NCBI GenBank assembly: GCA_002729235.1
Contig: PBTY01000042.1
Location: 12,120 to 67,379 of the forward strand
Length of the DNA: 55,260 bases
Reading direction: 5' to 3'
Source: Rickettsiales bacterium
Lineage (GTDB): Bacteria > Bacteroidota > Bacteroidia > Cytophagales > Cyclobacteriaceae
In this document: positions 50,409 to 54,872 of the stretch, piece after piece
How positions within the stretch are numbered: the first letter of the stretch is position 1
How the letters are laid out: every line of letters begins with the position of its first letter
Translations under genes and position numbers: made by a program
Notes under the pieces: generated by a model
Told to the model about the DNA's origin: nothing
The model's database searches: none
Seen by the model: only the letters and a program-made list of their open reading frames with translations

Positions 50409-51068
50409 TCAAACATGCAATCCACATTCCGTTTTTTCCTGGCCTTGCCATCTTCCCTCACGGCCCTTTCCTTTCTTGGTGCAGTGCACACATCCTATAG
50501 AACCATAACCCTCATATTGCAAAGGATGAGTAGGCAGTTCATAAATGGTACGATATAGGTTTAAATCTTCCGGTCCCATATCAATGATTGGATGAAACTT
50601 CAATAAGCCTTTAGACTTTTCGAATATTTGCTTGTCAGCTCTATTCGCATTTTGAAAACGAAGCAATCCTGAGATCCAAACGTCTTTACCTTTTTTCAGC
50701 TCGGCCATTGGCTCTACCTTATTGATGAAGCAGCAAAAATCTGTATCATTATTCCAGACCTGATATTTGGCAGTAAAATCATGAGAACTCTTTCGTGGCT
50801 GCACATCCACAATGTTCAGATCAAACTGATCCATCAAGTACTCTTTGTAAGCATGCGTTTCTTTGAATAGATATCCTGTATCGATCAGATGAATAGGATG
50901 TCTTGGCGCTACTTTATTGATCAAGTGCAGTAGCACGATAGAACTACCTCCCATCGAAGTAGTCACTAATATTTTATCTGGATCAAACTCATCAAACAAC
51001 GCCTTGAGTCTGTCCAGATAAGTCAGATTTTCGTATTTATTATTTAAATCAATCAGGTTTTGATTCAT
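50409..51068 (-). CDS. cysH: Phosphoadenylyl/adenylyl-sulfate reductase CysH (APS-type)
   Basis: A 219-residue PAPS/APS reductase family enzyme, reducing activated sulfate to sulfite with thioredoxin. Nucleotide-binding loop TTSMGGSSIVLL; Cys pair in TDFCCFINKVEPM and CxxC in GSIGCVHCTKKGKGREGRW form the four-Cys [4Fe-4S] site of APS reductases; C-terminal ECGLHV carries the catalytic Cys. So APS is the likelier substrate. The ATG at 51068 is chosen; the frame extends to 51128 inside the upstream gene. It overlaps that gene by 20 nt. Last gene of the sulfite operon. Confidence 0.92.
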   Translation of the reverse strand: MNQNLIDLNNKYENLTYLDRLKALFDEFDPDKILVTTSMGGSSIVLLHLINKVAPRHPIHLIDTGYLFKETHAYKEYLMDQFDLNIVDVQPRKSSHDFTAKYQVWNNDTDFCCFINKVEPMAELKKGKDVWISGLLRFQNANRADKQIFEKSKGLLKFHPIIDMGPEDLNLYRTIYELPTHPLQYEGYGSIGCVHCTKKGKGREGRWQGQEKTECGLHV

Positions 51069-51663
51069 TTTCATTGCCCTTTTCCACGAGTACTGAAGTG
51101 ATTTCATTGAGTTTTTGAACCTTGTCATTGAAATCGCCCTTCAGTCTATCTCTGATTGTTTTTAATTGATCTAATAAGTCTTGTGTATTGTCTGGCAGAA
51201 TCTCCTCAAGCATTTGTCTGAATCTTTTGGCAAAAGTTGGGGACTTACCATTGGTACTAATACCAATTTTCAAATCTCCTTTTTTCACGGTAGATCCCAG
51301 ATAAAAGTCGCAAAGGTCAGGGGTGTCAGCTACATTCGTTAGCAATCTCAACTTCTCAGCCTTTTTCTTCATGCGCACATGAAGCCCGTAATTATCAGTA
51401 GCGAGTATCAAAATATCAGCTGATTTGAGATCACGTCCCCTGACCTTGCGATTAATGAGCTTAATGCTATCAGACTCTTTTGCAAGAGTTTTTAGTTCAC
51501 CTTTAATTATTGGTGCCACGATGGTAATGTTAGCATCCGGATCGTTTTTCAATAGCGCTTCTACCTTTTCCAATCCTACATTTCCCCCACCCACTACCAA
51601 AGTCTGTACTTTGTGTAGTTTGATAAAAACAGGAAATAAAACATTACCTTCTGACTTATTCAT
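51049..51663 (-). CDS. Precorrin-2 dehydrogenase / sirohydrochlorin ferrochelatase-like (CysG N-terminal type)
   Basis: A 204-residue protein corresponding to the N-terminal part of CysG. NAD-binding VVGGGNVGLEKVEALL, DILILATDNYGLH, then TNVADTPDLCDFYLGSTVKKGDLKIGISTNGKSP, typical of Met8/CysG-B. Oxidises precorrin-2 to sirohydrochlorin and may insert iron, giving siroheme for the sulfite reductase of the same operon. 3 nt after cobA and overlapping cysH. Confidence 0.93.
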   Translation of the reverse strand: MNKSEGNVLFPVFIKLHKVQTLVVGGGNVGLEKVEALLKNDPDANITIVAPIIKGELKTLAKESDSIKLINRKVRGRDLKSADILILATDNYGLHVRMKKKAEKLRLLTNVADTPDLCDFYLGSTVKKGDLKIGISTNGKSPTFAKRFRQMLEEILPDNTQDLLDQLKTIRDRLKGDFNDKVQKLNEITSVLVEKGNENESKPD

Positions 51664-51666
51664 ATG

Positions 51667-52434
51667 TTATGCAACTTCGGTTTTAGCAGCTTCCCACCAT
51701 TGATTGACTTGCTGTTCATTGGTTGCCAAAGCAGCTCCCTCTCCAAATATCAGAAGAGCTGGTGCCTCTGGCTTCTTCTCTTTAGCAATAGCCACAATAT
51801 CCGAAACTTTCCCTTTGATCACATCTCCATCTGCGTGAGACCCCTTACTTATAATCGCAACAGGCAGGTCGTTTCGTCCATTAGCAGCATACGCCTCAGC
51901 AATTAGGTCTAATTTACCCAATCCCATGAAGTAAAGTGTGGTTGGAGAAAAAGCAGCTGTATTTAACACTTCTTCGCTAAGTGTTCCATCTTTAGTGGTA
52001 GCTGTCACCACGCTAAAACTTTGGTTTACACCCCTACATGTCAACGGAATTCCGAAATAGCCTGGAAGCATCACACTGCTGATACCTAGCACCACATCTA
52101 CTTGCAGTCCGTGTTTTTCAGCATACGCTTTTTCTTCAAACCCTCTTCCAAAAACAAATGAGTCTCCACCTTTCAAACGAACTACATGCCCCATTTCCTT
52201 GGCATACTGCACAATCAAATGATTGATCGTATCCTGCGACACAGAAGATTTTCCTGCACGCTTGCCTACCGGAATATGTAATGCATTTGGCGCATACTGT
52301 AATACTTCAGGATCAACCAACGCATCATAAAGCACAACATCTGCAGTTTGAAGAGCTTTTACCCCCTTGATCGTCATTAGTTCAGGATCCCCAGGACCTG
52401 CACCTACCAATGTTACTCTTGAGATCTTAGACAT
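51667..52434 (-). CDS. cobA: Uroporphyrinogen-III C-methyltransferase (SUMT)
   Basis: A 255-residue SAM-dependent methylase. VTLVGAGPGDPELMTIKGV is the family N-terminal motif, with DVVLYDALVDPEVL, VVRLKGGDSFVFGRG and GISSVMLPGYFGIPLTCRGV also diagnostic. It converts uroporphyrinogen III to precorrin-2, the first step of siroheme synthesis. It consumes SAM, which matches the SAM riboswitch in the operon leader. 5 nt after the reductase. Confidence 0.95.
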   Translation of the reverse strand: MSKISRVTLVGAGPGDPELMTIKGVKALQTADVVLYDALVDPEVLQYAPNALHIPVGKRAGKSSVSQDTINHLIVQYAKEMGHVVRLKGGDSFVFGRGFEEKAYAEKHGLQVDVVLGISSVMLPGYFGIPLTCRGVNQSFSVVTATTKDGTLSEEVLNTAAFSPTTLYFMGLGKLDLIAEAYAANGRNDLPVAIISKGSHADGDVIKGKVSDIVAIAKEKKPEAPALLIFGEGAALATNEQQVNQWWEAAKTEVA

Positions 52435-52439
52435 GATGA

Positions 52440-54557
52440 TTAAGCTTTATAAAATTCGTTGATCACTAATTTGTCTCCTTCGCCGTTTCTCAGTGCATTG
52501 ATGCCCTCAAAGAAAGCGTCTGCCTGAGCAATGTAAGACTCAGCAAATTCTTTGGTTGGTTCATATTTATTAATTTGAAGAACTAACTCAGAGAAATCGC
52601 TAATAGCTGCCAATTCACCTTTCTCAACTACATGAGCTTGGAAGTCTTCGATAATTCCTTGATGTGTGTTACACTGAATGTCCTTGTGAAGCAAAATTGC
52701 CTTAGCACCAATCACCAACGTGTTGTAAGCATAGTAAATCGCATTGGCCCACTTTTCTTCAGTCAATGCTTTCTTTCCGCTTTCCAATCGATCTTTCGCA
52801 TCGTTAATGATCGTTCCAACTAGATCCAACATCACACCAGCACACTCTCCCACTCCGATCTCCGGAACGAAATCAGCTACTTTACCCCAATCCTGGTAAT
52901 CCACATCGGCCAATGTTTTCACATCACCGAGATGTTTCAACAAATCATAGAAATAGATTTTACCTTGTCTACGGAAGTATGCATTGAAGTATTCTCCTTC
53001 TACACTGTTTTCCTCGTAGTTATTCAGAATAAGCCTTACGGTCTCTGGAATTCTCTTGGTAGGGATTTTGACAACCTTCTCAGCGATATTTCCCTTACCA
53101 TCTGGATCAACTCCTCCACCAAGCACTACCTGCATAGCTGGAGCTACTTTATTTCCATTCTTAATACTAGAACCATGGAATCCGATGTTTGCAACCATGT
53201 GCTGACCACATGAATTCATACATCCACTGATTTTGATTTTGATCAATTCTTCATCCACCAAATGAGGAAACTCATCTCTCACCAGGTTTTCCAACTCCAA
53301 AGCCAAAGCTGTACTATTGGTCACACCAAGGTTACAAGTATCCGTACCAGGACAAGCAGTTACATCGGCAAGCGTATCAAAACCAGGTGCTGCAAAACCA
53401 AGCTCCTTTAGTTCCGCATATACTGCAGGGATGTTTTCCAGTCTAACAAACTTGTAAATCAATCCTTGATTTAGTGTAAACCGAATATCATCAGCCGCAT
53501 AATTTCTAGCGATCTCCGCTAAAACTCTTGCTTTTGGTGCTTTGATATCTCCTAATGGAATTCGAACCTTCACTGCATAGAAACCTTCTTGCTTTTGCTC
53601 GAACACATTGGTTTTAAACCACTCATCGTACGCCGCATCAGTCTCCACATTAGAGACAGTAAGGATTGAGCTATCCTCAGGAATCTTGGTGATTACTTTT
53701 TTGGTATTGATCTTATAGGTTTGATAAGGCAATGACTTACGCTCCTCCTCAATCAATTTCAAGTAACCATCTAGTCCAATTCCTTTTTTCGGGTCTATCA
53801 AAAACTTCAAACGCGCTTTGTGTCTTCTTTCGCGCTCACCGTAGCGATCAAACACTCTCAAACCAGCTTCGATGAATGGAATCAACTCATCCTGAGGCAG
53901 GAATTCGTAGGCTAACTGTCCCATGAAGGCTTGAGCACCAAGGCCTCCACCAACAATCACCTCGAATCCATAGGCCCCATCTTTGATTTTAGGAATGAAC
54001 CCAAAATCATGAATGTATGTAAATGCTGAATCAGATCGAGAAGATGAAAATGCAATCTTAATCTTCCGTCCCATCTCCTGACATACAGGATTTCTTAAAA
54101 AATATTCAAATACTCCATATGCGTACGGAGCCACATCAAATGGCTCATTAGGATCAATCCCTGCAAAAGGAGATGCAGTTACGTTTCTAACCGTATTCCC
54201 ACAAGCTTCTTTGGAGGTAACCCCCACTTTTTCTAACTCTTCCCAAATAGCTGGAGAATCCTCCAACTTCACATAGTGCAACTGAATGTTTTGACGAGTT
54301 GTCAAATGCAAATTGCTATTGGTATACTGCTCAGATAGGTTTGCACATGTTTCTATTTGATCCGCAGTGATCTTACCAAACGGCAGTTTTAATCGAAACA
54401 TCTGTACGCCTTGCTGACGCTGACCATAAACTCCTCTGGCCAACCGGAATGCTTTAAATCGCTCTTCTGGAATTTGTCCAAGCTTAAAGCTTTGGATCTT
54501 ATCCTTCAGCTCTTGAATGTCTGCTTGCGCTTCTTGTGAAATAGTTTTGGTGCTCAT
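52440..54557 (-). CDS. Siroheme-dependent sulfite (nitrite) reductase with C-terminal HEPN-like domain
   Basis: A 705-residue protein. Duplicated ferrodoxin-like and siroheme domains cover about 1-555. Cluster-binding cysteines: C-x5-C in TACPGTDTCNLG and C-x3-C in SGCMNSCGQH. LHLTTRQNIQLH and RNVTASPFAGID are substrate/siroheme-site motifs. Residues about 565-700 are an added helical domain (AKDRLESGKKALTEEKWANA, YNTLVIGAKAILLHKD) resembling HEPN. The family reduces sulfite or nitrite with ferredoxin; the cysH and cobA neighbours favour sulfite. First gene of the operon; the 430-nt leader upstream carries a SAM riboswitch, two Cys-rich leader ORFs and a terminator. Confidence 0.93.
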   Translation of the reverse strand: MSTKTISQEAQADIQELKDKIQSFKLGQIPEERFKAFRLARGVYGQRQQGVQMFRLKLPFGKITADQIETCANLSEQYTNSNLHLTTRQNIQLHYVKLEDSPAIWEELEKVGVTSKEACGNTVRNVTASPFAGIDPNEPFDVAPYAYGVFEYFLRNPVCQEMGRKIKIAFSSSRSDSAFTYIHDFGFIPKIKDGAYGFEVIVGGGLGAQAFMGQLAYEFLPQDELIPFIEAGLRVFDRYGERERRHKARLKFLIDPKKGIGLDGYLKLIEEERKSLPYQTYKINTKKVITKIPEDSSILTVSNVETDAAYDEWFKTNVFEQKQEGFYAVKVRIPLGDIKAPKARVLAEIARNYAADDIRFTLNQGLIYKFVRLENIPAVYAELKELGFAAPGFDTLADVTACPGTDTCNLGVTNSTALALELENLVRDEFPHLVDEELIKIKISGCMNSCGQHMVANIGFHGSSIKNGNKVAPAMQVVLGGGVDPDGKGNIAEKVVKIPTKRIPETVRLILNNYEENSVEGEYFNAYFRRQGKIYFYDLLKHLGDVKTLADVDYQDWGKVADFVPEIGVGECAGVMLDLVGTIINDAKDRLESGKKALTEEKWANAIYYAYNTLVIGAKAILLHKDIQCNTHQGIIEDFQAHVVEKGELAAISDFSELVLQINKYEPTKEFAESYIAQADAFFEGINALRNGEGDKLVINEFYKA

Positions 54558-54576
54558 TGTATTGTTGGTTTTGCAT

Positions 54577-54611
54577 AAAAAAACCCCGAGATCTGTTCGT
54601 TCCCGGGGTTT
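54577..54611 (-). terminator. Intrinsic terminator/attenuator before the sulfite reductase gene
   Basis: On the minus strand AAACCCCGGGA (54611-54601) pairs with TCTCGGGGTTT (54591-54581) over 11 bp with one G-T pair, loop of 9, followed directly by a seven-T run (54583-54577). It lies 20 bases before the reductase ATG, so it can stop transcription of the whole operon. Its 5' arm is also complementary to a segment inside the second leader ORF (see findings). Confidence 0.9.
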
Positions 54612-54635
54612 CGTTAAAGTCTTATATTGTTTTGC

Positions 54636-54740
54636 TTATAACTGAATCCGGGAAAATATTGTACAACAACATGCACAGCACATCTTGCATGTACAACTGA
54701 TTGAAATAAGAAGATTTTGATTGTTTAGTCTTAGAGACAT
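54636..54740 (-). CDS. Cysteine-rich leader peptide 2 (34 codons)
   Basis: The ATG at 54740 opens MSLRLNNQNLLISIS, then SCTCKMCCACCCT (7 Cys at residues 16, 18, 21, 22, 24, 25, 26) and ends TIFSRIQL with TAA at 54636. Cys codons are TGT or TGC. It stops 24 nt before the terminator stem. A hairpin over the Cys codons (ACATGCA 54669-54675 with TGCATGT 54686-54692) and the TTCCCGG segment (54648-54654, codons 29-31), complementary to the terminator 5' arm, fit an attenuator leader. A start at the internal Met20 would leave five Cys. Expression is inferred. Confidence 0.65.
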   Translation of the reverse strand: MSLRLNNQNLLISISCTCKMCCACCCTIFSRIQL

Positions 54741-54788
54741 AGTTCTATGTTTGTTGGATGAAAAGTAACTCTGATTAATTCTGACGAA

Positions 54789-54872
54789 TTAACAGCAGCA
54801 ACAACAACAACATAGTTCACCTGTTTGGTGAATTTGTCTGGTAAGTCTAAAATTAAGTTCTAAAGTTTTCAT
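54789..54872 (-). CDS. Polycysteine leader peptide 1 (27 codons)
   Basis: The ATG at 54872 opens MKTLELNFRLTRQIHQTGEL followed by seven consecutive Cys codons (54812-54792) and TAA (54791-54789). The mixed TGT/TGC codons argue against a simple nucleotide repeat. Its start lies 3 nt after the closing stem of the SAM riboswitch. A 7-bp hairpin (TTAATTC/GAATTAA, 54775-54792) covers its stop codon. It resembles the polycysteine leader ORFs known as cysteine-responsive attenuators in mycobacteria; no such system is known to me in Bacteroidota. Confidence 0.75.
   Translation of the reverse strand: MKTLELNFRLTRQIHQTGELCCCCCCC

Follow-up and report, generated by a model that had tools for sequence, protein, structure and literature searches.

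A SAM-I riboswitch and two cysteine-rich leader ORFs ahead of a nitrite/sulfite reductase-family operon in Bacteroidota: a putative serial controller

Ribosome-mediated transcription attenuators of the trp/his type are known from Proteobacteria. The aptamer of RF01704 is followed by a short ORF, in which we know of no regulatory codon run, and short polycysteine ORFs of mycobacteria—leaderless according to the title—were reportedly described by Canestrari et al. in 2020. RF01704 is the glutamine-binding 'downstream-peptide' motif (PMC6316151). For cysteine, the uORFC-8-2 motif upstream of cysS in Rhodobacterales is a predicted ribosome-mediated attenuator (PMC8632094), and leader peptides with Cys runs have been predicted for cys/cbs operons of Actinobacteria, with Rho suggested (PMC1262725). 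SAM-I elements with a ribosome-binding site in the 3′ side of P1 have been described (PMC2258182). Leader-peptide attenuation has been suggested for amino-acid operons of F. psychrophilum (PMC9723704), and short ORFs in long leaders of B. thetaiotaomicron are reminiscent of attenuation (PMC7366714). According to a 2013 survey, Rfam at that time contained attenuator motifs for no amino acids other than His, Leu, Thr, and Trp (PMC3766115). All of these citations, here and below, refer to excerpts of their sources. Among the open-licence literature matches listed, none describes a cysteine attenuator in Bacteroidota—an earlier note on the present DNA also knew of none—and the predicted ones lie elsewhere (PMC1262725, PMC8632094); likewise, none of the matches listed reports a Cys leader ORF under the control of a SAM riboswitch.

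The window, that is, the whole stretch of DNA analysed here, is 55,260 nucleotides long, and all features described below lie on its minus strand. The regulated operon starts with a gene of the nitrite/sulfite reductase family (NIR_SIR, 52440..54557), which reaches no NCBIfam cut-off and is read as an assimilatory sulfite reductase on the basis of its gene context. It is followed by genes for a uroporphyrinogen-III C-methyltransferase (cobA, 51667..52434), a siroheme synthase N-terminal domain protein (51049..51663), and a phosphoadenylyl-sulfate reductase (cysH, 50409..51128). This gene set fits the pathway logic put forward earlier, namely that reduction of sulfite to sulfide leads to cysteine and that cysteine control would close the circle.

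The gene-proximal half of the leader features a 34-codon ORF, ORF2 (54636..54740), which has counterparts in relatives and encodes the peptide MSLRLNNQNLLISISCTCKMCCACCCTIFSRIQL with seven Cys residues at codons 16, 18, 21, 22, 24, 25, and 26. Its codons 29–31 contain the antiterminator segment TTCCCGG (54648..54654), the partner of which, CCGGGAA (54606-54600), lies in an intrinsic terminator hairpin (54581..54611) of 11 bp, one of them G-U, with −17.2 kcal/mol. The T7 of this terminator ends at 54577 and has three of its T's inside the stem. The earlier note had located all of these elements correctly and had called the leader a complete attenuator; the parts are indeed there, but the note had overlooked what lies directly upstream, namely another Cys-rich ORF and, before it, a SAM-I riboswitch. 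The hairpin over the Cys codons, described as one of 7 bp, is present as well but larger: 16 pairs (54658..54697) in both the MFE and the centroid fold. This predicted structure is possibly a pause or protector hairpin. The fold of the whole region 54740-54576 contains the terminator together with the 16-pair hairpin at an MFE of −38.1 (z −2.64), equally good in 3/200 shuffles. The antiterminator pairing in the window has a p of 0.007 (300 shuffles) and ranks at 0.035 against the terminator arms of other loci; the pattern TTCCCGG-N30-60-CCGGGAA occurs a single time in the window and in 0/100 shuffles. A simple terminator scan did not list the terminator, probably because its 9-nt loop exceeds the 3–8 nt allowed in the scan. 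Right after the T-run, an ATG at 54576 opens a 25-codon ORF in a frame other than that of the reductase start at 54557.

For comparison, stretches upstream of reductase genes were taken from relatives and from named genome contigs, for which the best 80 of 302 matches were used. The 192 stretches comprise 151 loci after 41 were dropped (37 duplicates and four shorter than 200 nt); related species were thinned only where thinning is stated. An ORF with at least three Cys lies within 260 nt of the reductase gene in 107/151 loci, compared with 81/1510 shuffles; the stricter form, five or more Cys among nine residues, occurs in 66/151 loci, compared with 2/1510. Within 420 nt, 36 of the 41 non-duplicate named contigs—many labelled Saprospiraceae or Chitinophagales—carry an ORF with at least three Cys. 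The 44 loci lacking a Cys ORF within 260 nt divide into 15 in which the reductase closely follows another open frame and 29 in which it does not. In 110/151 loci there is a terminator with an energy of −8 kcal/mol or below, and its presence goes along with the Cys ORF: 102/107 loci with it have a terminator, compared with 8/44 without (Fisher 1e-21).

The 101 loci with both terminator and Cys ORF were used for the antiterminator pairing. Pairing of the segment after the Cys cluster with the 5′ arm of the terminator beats shuffles at p ≤ 0.05 in 64/101 loci and at p ≤ 0.01 in 38/101, with a combined p of 9e-60 in which loci are treated as independent, though many are related; the remaining 37/101 fall short of 0.05. 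In an arm-swap control, own arms pair with −14.1 kcal/mol on average and foreign arms with −9.5; the mean rank is 0.146 (n = 101), and 49/101 loci are in the best 5%, or 31/60 after thinning to 60 distinct arms. The own arm is thus preferred over foreign ones, and therefore the antiterminator segment and the terminator arm change together. These comparisons establish the parts of the leader, their conservation, and the specificity of the pairing. The expectation that relatives keep the Cys codons and the pairing is borne out for 107/151 and 64/101 loci, respectively, but not for 44/151 and 37/101, the latter including two members of the window's own genus (L007 and L057). The comparison supports the proposed transcription attenuator, ribosome-mediated and working through Cys codons.

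All six genomes of the window's genus have a terminator at the ORF2 position, and the arm-swap rank is between 0.035 and 0.065 in five of the loci. L007 possesses the Cys ORFs and the terminator, with the pairing unsupported (p 0.52, rank 0.465), and L057 reaches only p 0.073 against shuffles. Between the window's locus (L003) and its closest relative (L004), ORF2 differs by eight substitutions, at codon positions 1, 3, 3, 1, 1, 3, 2, and 3. Marinoscillum sp. MHG1-6 (L037), placed in another genus, has neither Cys leader nor terminator. There, as in L008 and L035, the reductase follows another open frame by 40 nt or less, and all three loci are without Cys leader and terminator, which is expected if control sits at the head of the operon.

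A leader peptide with the motif N.K..A..R.ACW.WCC is shared by 13 relatives, among which its Asn, Lys, Ala, Arg, and Cys codons change synonymously; such changes at kept residues speak for translation of the leader peptide in those 13 loci. The residues R, A, C, W, W, C, and C of the motif are fixed or nearly so by the search pattern, whereas the preceding N, K, and A are not. The loci sharing this motif around RCACWFWCC are L020, L022, L024, L089–L092, L094, L096–L098, L100, and L101. Such a peptide might act by sequence-specific arrest, or it might sense Trp together with Cys.

Ten loci outside the genus were picked by eye for two Cys ORFs. In eight of them (L021, L160, L169, L173, L174, L176, L178, and L193), each Cys ORF is followed by a strong terminator of −12 or better, and judged by their sequences these loci look like tandem cysteine attenuators upstream of the reductase—a candidate form of cysteine control in other lineages. 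L149 and L041, with two Cys ORFs each, have one strong terminator.

The upstream half of the window's leader consists of a SAM-I (S-box) riboswitch aptamer (RF00162, 54880..54990; cmscan 78.9 bits at a gathering threshold of 44.4, E 5.7e-17) and a second leader ORF, ORF1 (54789..54872), the ATG of which lies 7 nt past the aptamer. ORF1 has 27 codons, encodes MKTLELNFRLTRQIHQTGELCCCCCCC, and ends in CCCCCCC, seven Cys codons that abut the stop codon. Preceded by a 111-nt aptamer, it is not leaderless if one transcript spans both. ORF2 starts 48 nt past the ORF1 stop, and the spacer in between (54741..54788) contains no GC-rich terminator. SAM-I covariance-model matches are found in 5/5 genus loci scanned (the window and L004–L007), and the sixth locus, L057, has the SAM-I core motif; an ORF1 equivalent is present in 6/6 genomes. 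Hairpins before T's in the spacer are limited to a weak one of −10.3 that overlaps the end of ORF1 in the window and one of −8.2 in L007; L004, L005, L006, and L057 have none of −7 or better. Because the attenuator sits behind a SAM-I riboswitch and a second polycysteine ORF—the latter lacking a strong terminator of its own—cysteine is probably not its sole input.

SAM-I was found in 145/148 sampled genomes of the family. From 119 SAM-I loci, 116 were used after L263, L290, and L293 were dropped for lack of the core motif; 80 places had been selected manually, for the most part in the order listed; some were known to lie near a reductase, and none was chosen by its uORF. Nine of the 116 were pre-chosen, having already been seen, and results are given with and without them. 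A uORF was defined by an ATG 15–90 nt past the aptamer core and at least three Cys in the last 10 residues. By this definition, 37/116 loci have a Cys uORF after SAM-I (28/107 without the pre-chosen ones), compared with 4/2320 shuffles; thinning at 60% positional identity leaves 32 of the 37 peptides. Cys is the final residue in 22/37, an excess that is in part by construction, as the definition demands C-terminal Cys. The uORF ATG lies at a median of 40 nt past the core (IQR 38–43.5) within the 15–90 nt searched, while in the 79 loci without uORF the gene itself starts at a median of 102 nt. Chance origin of the Cys ORFs, of the pairing, and of the uORF unit is ruled out by the shuffles.

The unit is specific for the gene downstream. 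It occurs in 34/46 metY/ferredoxin/sir loci and in 0/55 metH/hom/metX loci (Fisher 4e-17), or in 25/37 and 0/55, respectively, with the pre-chosen loci removed (8e-14). By type, a uORF is present before 23 metY-type genes and missing before 12; it precedes all seven reductase and all four ferredoxin genes, and two metZ/metB-type genes with eight lacking it. None stands before metH (0 of 44 of the N-terminal and 0 of 3 of the C-terminal type), hom (0 of 5), or metX (0 of 3), and loci with an unassigned downstream gene comprise one with and four without. The gene labels are based on short typed motifs; profile searches agreed with them for eight representatives and, in L305, for both the ferredoxin gene and the sulfhydrylase gene. 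Specificity for genes is thereby established within the family. In the wider class, a uORF follows in 0/26 readable SAM-I loci (the 30 best-scoring places from 198 genomes, four of them without core motif).

The window's own genome contains a second SAM-I copy (G000:C106, L002) upstream of an O-acetylhomoserine sulfhydrylase-type gene (metY), and the ORF after it ends in CCMCCMS and the stop codon. The pairing GTATGTGT/ACACATAC before a T-run was noticed in this leader by eye; its overall pairing is not above shuffles (p 0.51). A search of the genome for five consecutive Cys codons yielded nine overlapping matches, three of them in ORF1, five on contig C104, and one without leader context by eye. 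This search is a weak probe for a wider regulon, as ORF2 itself has no such run. Contig C104 (L201, L203) is rich in CAG/CAA repeats, unlike the rest by eye, and may be a contaminant; 4.64% contamination is listed for the assembly.

The leader as a whole likely acts on the sulfite/PAPS-reduction operon as a serial controller with two metabolites as input. We read it as a pair of cysteine sensors placed one after the other, the first being SAM-gated; with it, the cell can probably adjust sulfur assimilation to the supply of both methionine and cysteine. In the second sensor, ribosomes short of Cys-tRNA would stall in the Cys codons of ORF2 and leave TTCCCGG free to pair with CCGGGAA, the terminator could not form, and the operon would be transcribed; with ample Cys-tRNA, the ribosome at the ORF2 stop would cover TTCCCGG and the terminator would form. 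In the first, the aptamer ends 7 nt before the start of ORF1, and therefore SAM binding probably blocks initiation; a ribosome translating ORF1 would report Cys-tRNA, as the Cys run sits at the stop codon. Stalling, switching, and the response to SAM are what we infer from this arrangement of parts. For the family at large, about even chances are given to the reading that the SAM-I riboswitch targets a cysteine-sensing leader ORF instead of an enzyme, that one RNA thereby computes on both SAM and Cys-tRNA, and that the SAM-I/Cys-ORF unit is used on genes producing or using sulfide and not on metH, hom, or metX—in the window's genus in series with a terminator-type attenuator.

As to the output of ORF1, intrinsic terminators were rejected for the SAM-linked uORFs, with one of −8 or better in only 4/28 intervals. 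Our best guess is that a translating or stalled ORF1 ribosome would shield the spacer from Rho, as in tnaC. In 31/37 spacers after the uORF stop, C exceeds G, compared with 56/79 in the better-matched control (p 0.17); the difference is 2e-7 against the other control, which is less well matched. As the C-rich spacer is not distinct from the matched control, Rho is a guess. The predicted pairing of P1 into the ORF1 start comes from duplex energies, for which no null model was used, and differs from locus to locus.

Alternatively, ORF1 might exert translational control, with stalling in its Cys run opening a structure in which the ORF2 start—or that of metY—is hidden. This is unlikely. Its Cys codons do pair strongly with downstream sequence in L006 (−30.7, p 0.007), L005 (p 0.01), and L246 (p 0.003), the combined p over 36 loci is 0.0018, and mycobacterial cysteine genes have been called translation-attenuated (PMC13236596); but p ≤ 0.05 is reached only in these 3/36 loci, by which such pairing was rejected as a general switch, the window's own locus has a p of 0.69, and there is little structure in the leader intervals (mean z −1.0, 6/28 below −2).

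Doubtful, too, is a reading in which cysteine starvation represses through the SAM-I/uORF unit and thus saves sulfide for cysteine over homocysteine. The pathway would lend itself to such a logic, since 23/37 uORF loci are of the metY type, that is, they encode enzymes that turn sulfide into homocysteine (two of them profile-checked). The same unit, however, also stands before ferredoxin-led operons near sir and before sir itself, where starvation should activate.

That the plain cysteine attenuator, ORF2 with its terminator, alone matters and that SAM-I/ORF1 is an effectless remnant appears quite unlikely. The SAM-I/uORF unit belongs to other genes in relatives and could hence be a leftover, and ORF1 is followed by neither a strong terminator nor a consistent switch. 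Against this, 6/6 genus genomes and L041 retain both SAM-I and an ORF1 that ends in a Cys run, with reductase proteins across the genus down to 78% identical, and in the closest pair ORF1 differs in length by two extra in-frame codons in L004. Highly implausible is the view that the Cys-rich ORFs encode functional small metal- or redox-binding peptides and that the hairpin is an ordinary terminator: their Cys content is high and one clade keeps a peptide motif, but outside this clade of 13 loci the listed leader peptides share Cys content and place and not sequence, and the terminator pairing is locus-specific.

How the two modules of the serial controller came together is suggested by relatives in which genes stand between them. 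In genome G020, SAM-I is followed by a polycysteine uORF, a ferredoxin gene, and an O-succinylhomoserine sulfhydrylase-type gene (L305), and beyond these, on the same contig and in the same direction, by the reductase with a Cys leader and terminator of its own (L009); the gene order at L237 begins likewise. In G128 (L276, L035), the reductase lies closely behind the sulfhydrylase-type gene and has no Cys leader or terminator of its own. The window's genus has no gene between the SAM-I/ORF1 module and the attenuator module. The two-module leader may have arisen once intervening sulfhydrylase (and ferredoxin) genes no longer separated the modules; gene loss in the window's genus, and with it the direction of evolution, we infer from these gene orders.

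The leader makes a testable proposal for how Bacteroidota regulate sulfur assimilation. Cysteine attenuation by ribosomes, predicted here from leaders with locus-specific covariation, is thereby extended to another phylum. If the proposed reading is true, the SAM-I/polycysteine-uORF unit is a riboswitch controlling a leader peptide that senses a second metabolite, at the branch of cysteine and methionine.

Compared with attenuators of the trp/his type, the window's leader has in common the ORF rich in codons of the product, the antiterminator overlapping the end of this ORF, and the U-tract terminator before the first gene. It differs by being a cysteine leader, by its occurrence in Bacteroidota, and by its position behind a SAM-I riboswitch and a second Cys ORF. 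ORF1 resembles the mycobacterial polycysteine ORFs in having its Cys run at the end of a short ORF. With RF01704, SAM-I/ORF1 shares the order of aptamer and short ORF; ligand and phylum are different. The uORFC-8-2 motif likewise combines an intrinsic terminator with Cys codons located in the first stem, but it features two conserved Cys codons, precedes a tRNA synthetase gene, and belongs to Alphaproteobacteria, and the excerpt mentions no riboswitch (PMC8632094). Like ORF1, the actinobacterial leaders are short ORFs that carry their Cys run close to the stop and have no conserved terminator hairpin; unlike for ORF1, the excerpt mentions no SAM aptamer for them (PMC1262725). The candidates from F. 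psychrophilum and B. thetaiotaomicron differ from the window in that cysteine is not named as the attenuated pathway in the excerpts (PMC9723704, PMC7366714). ORF1 adjoins P1, which suggests SAM-gated initiation as in the SAM-I elements with a ribosome-binding site in P1; unlike in those elements as excerpted, the ORF beside P1 here is a polycysteine leader ORF and not an enzyme gene (PMC2258182). Taken by itself, the attenuator hence looks like a known type in a new phylum, and the proposed SAM-gated Cys ORF appears to be a new arrangement.
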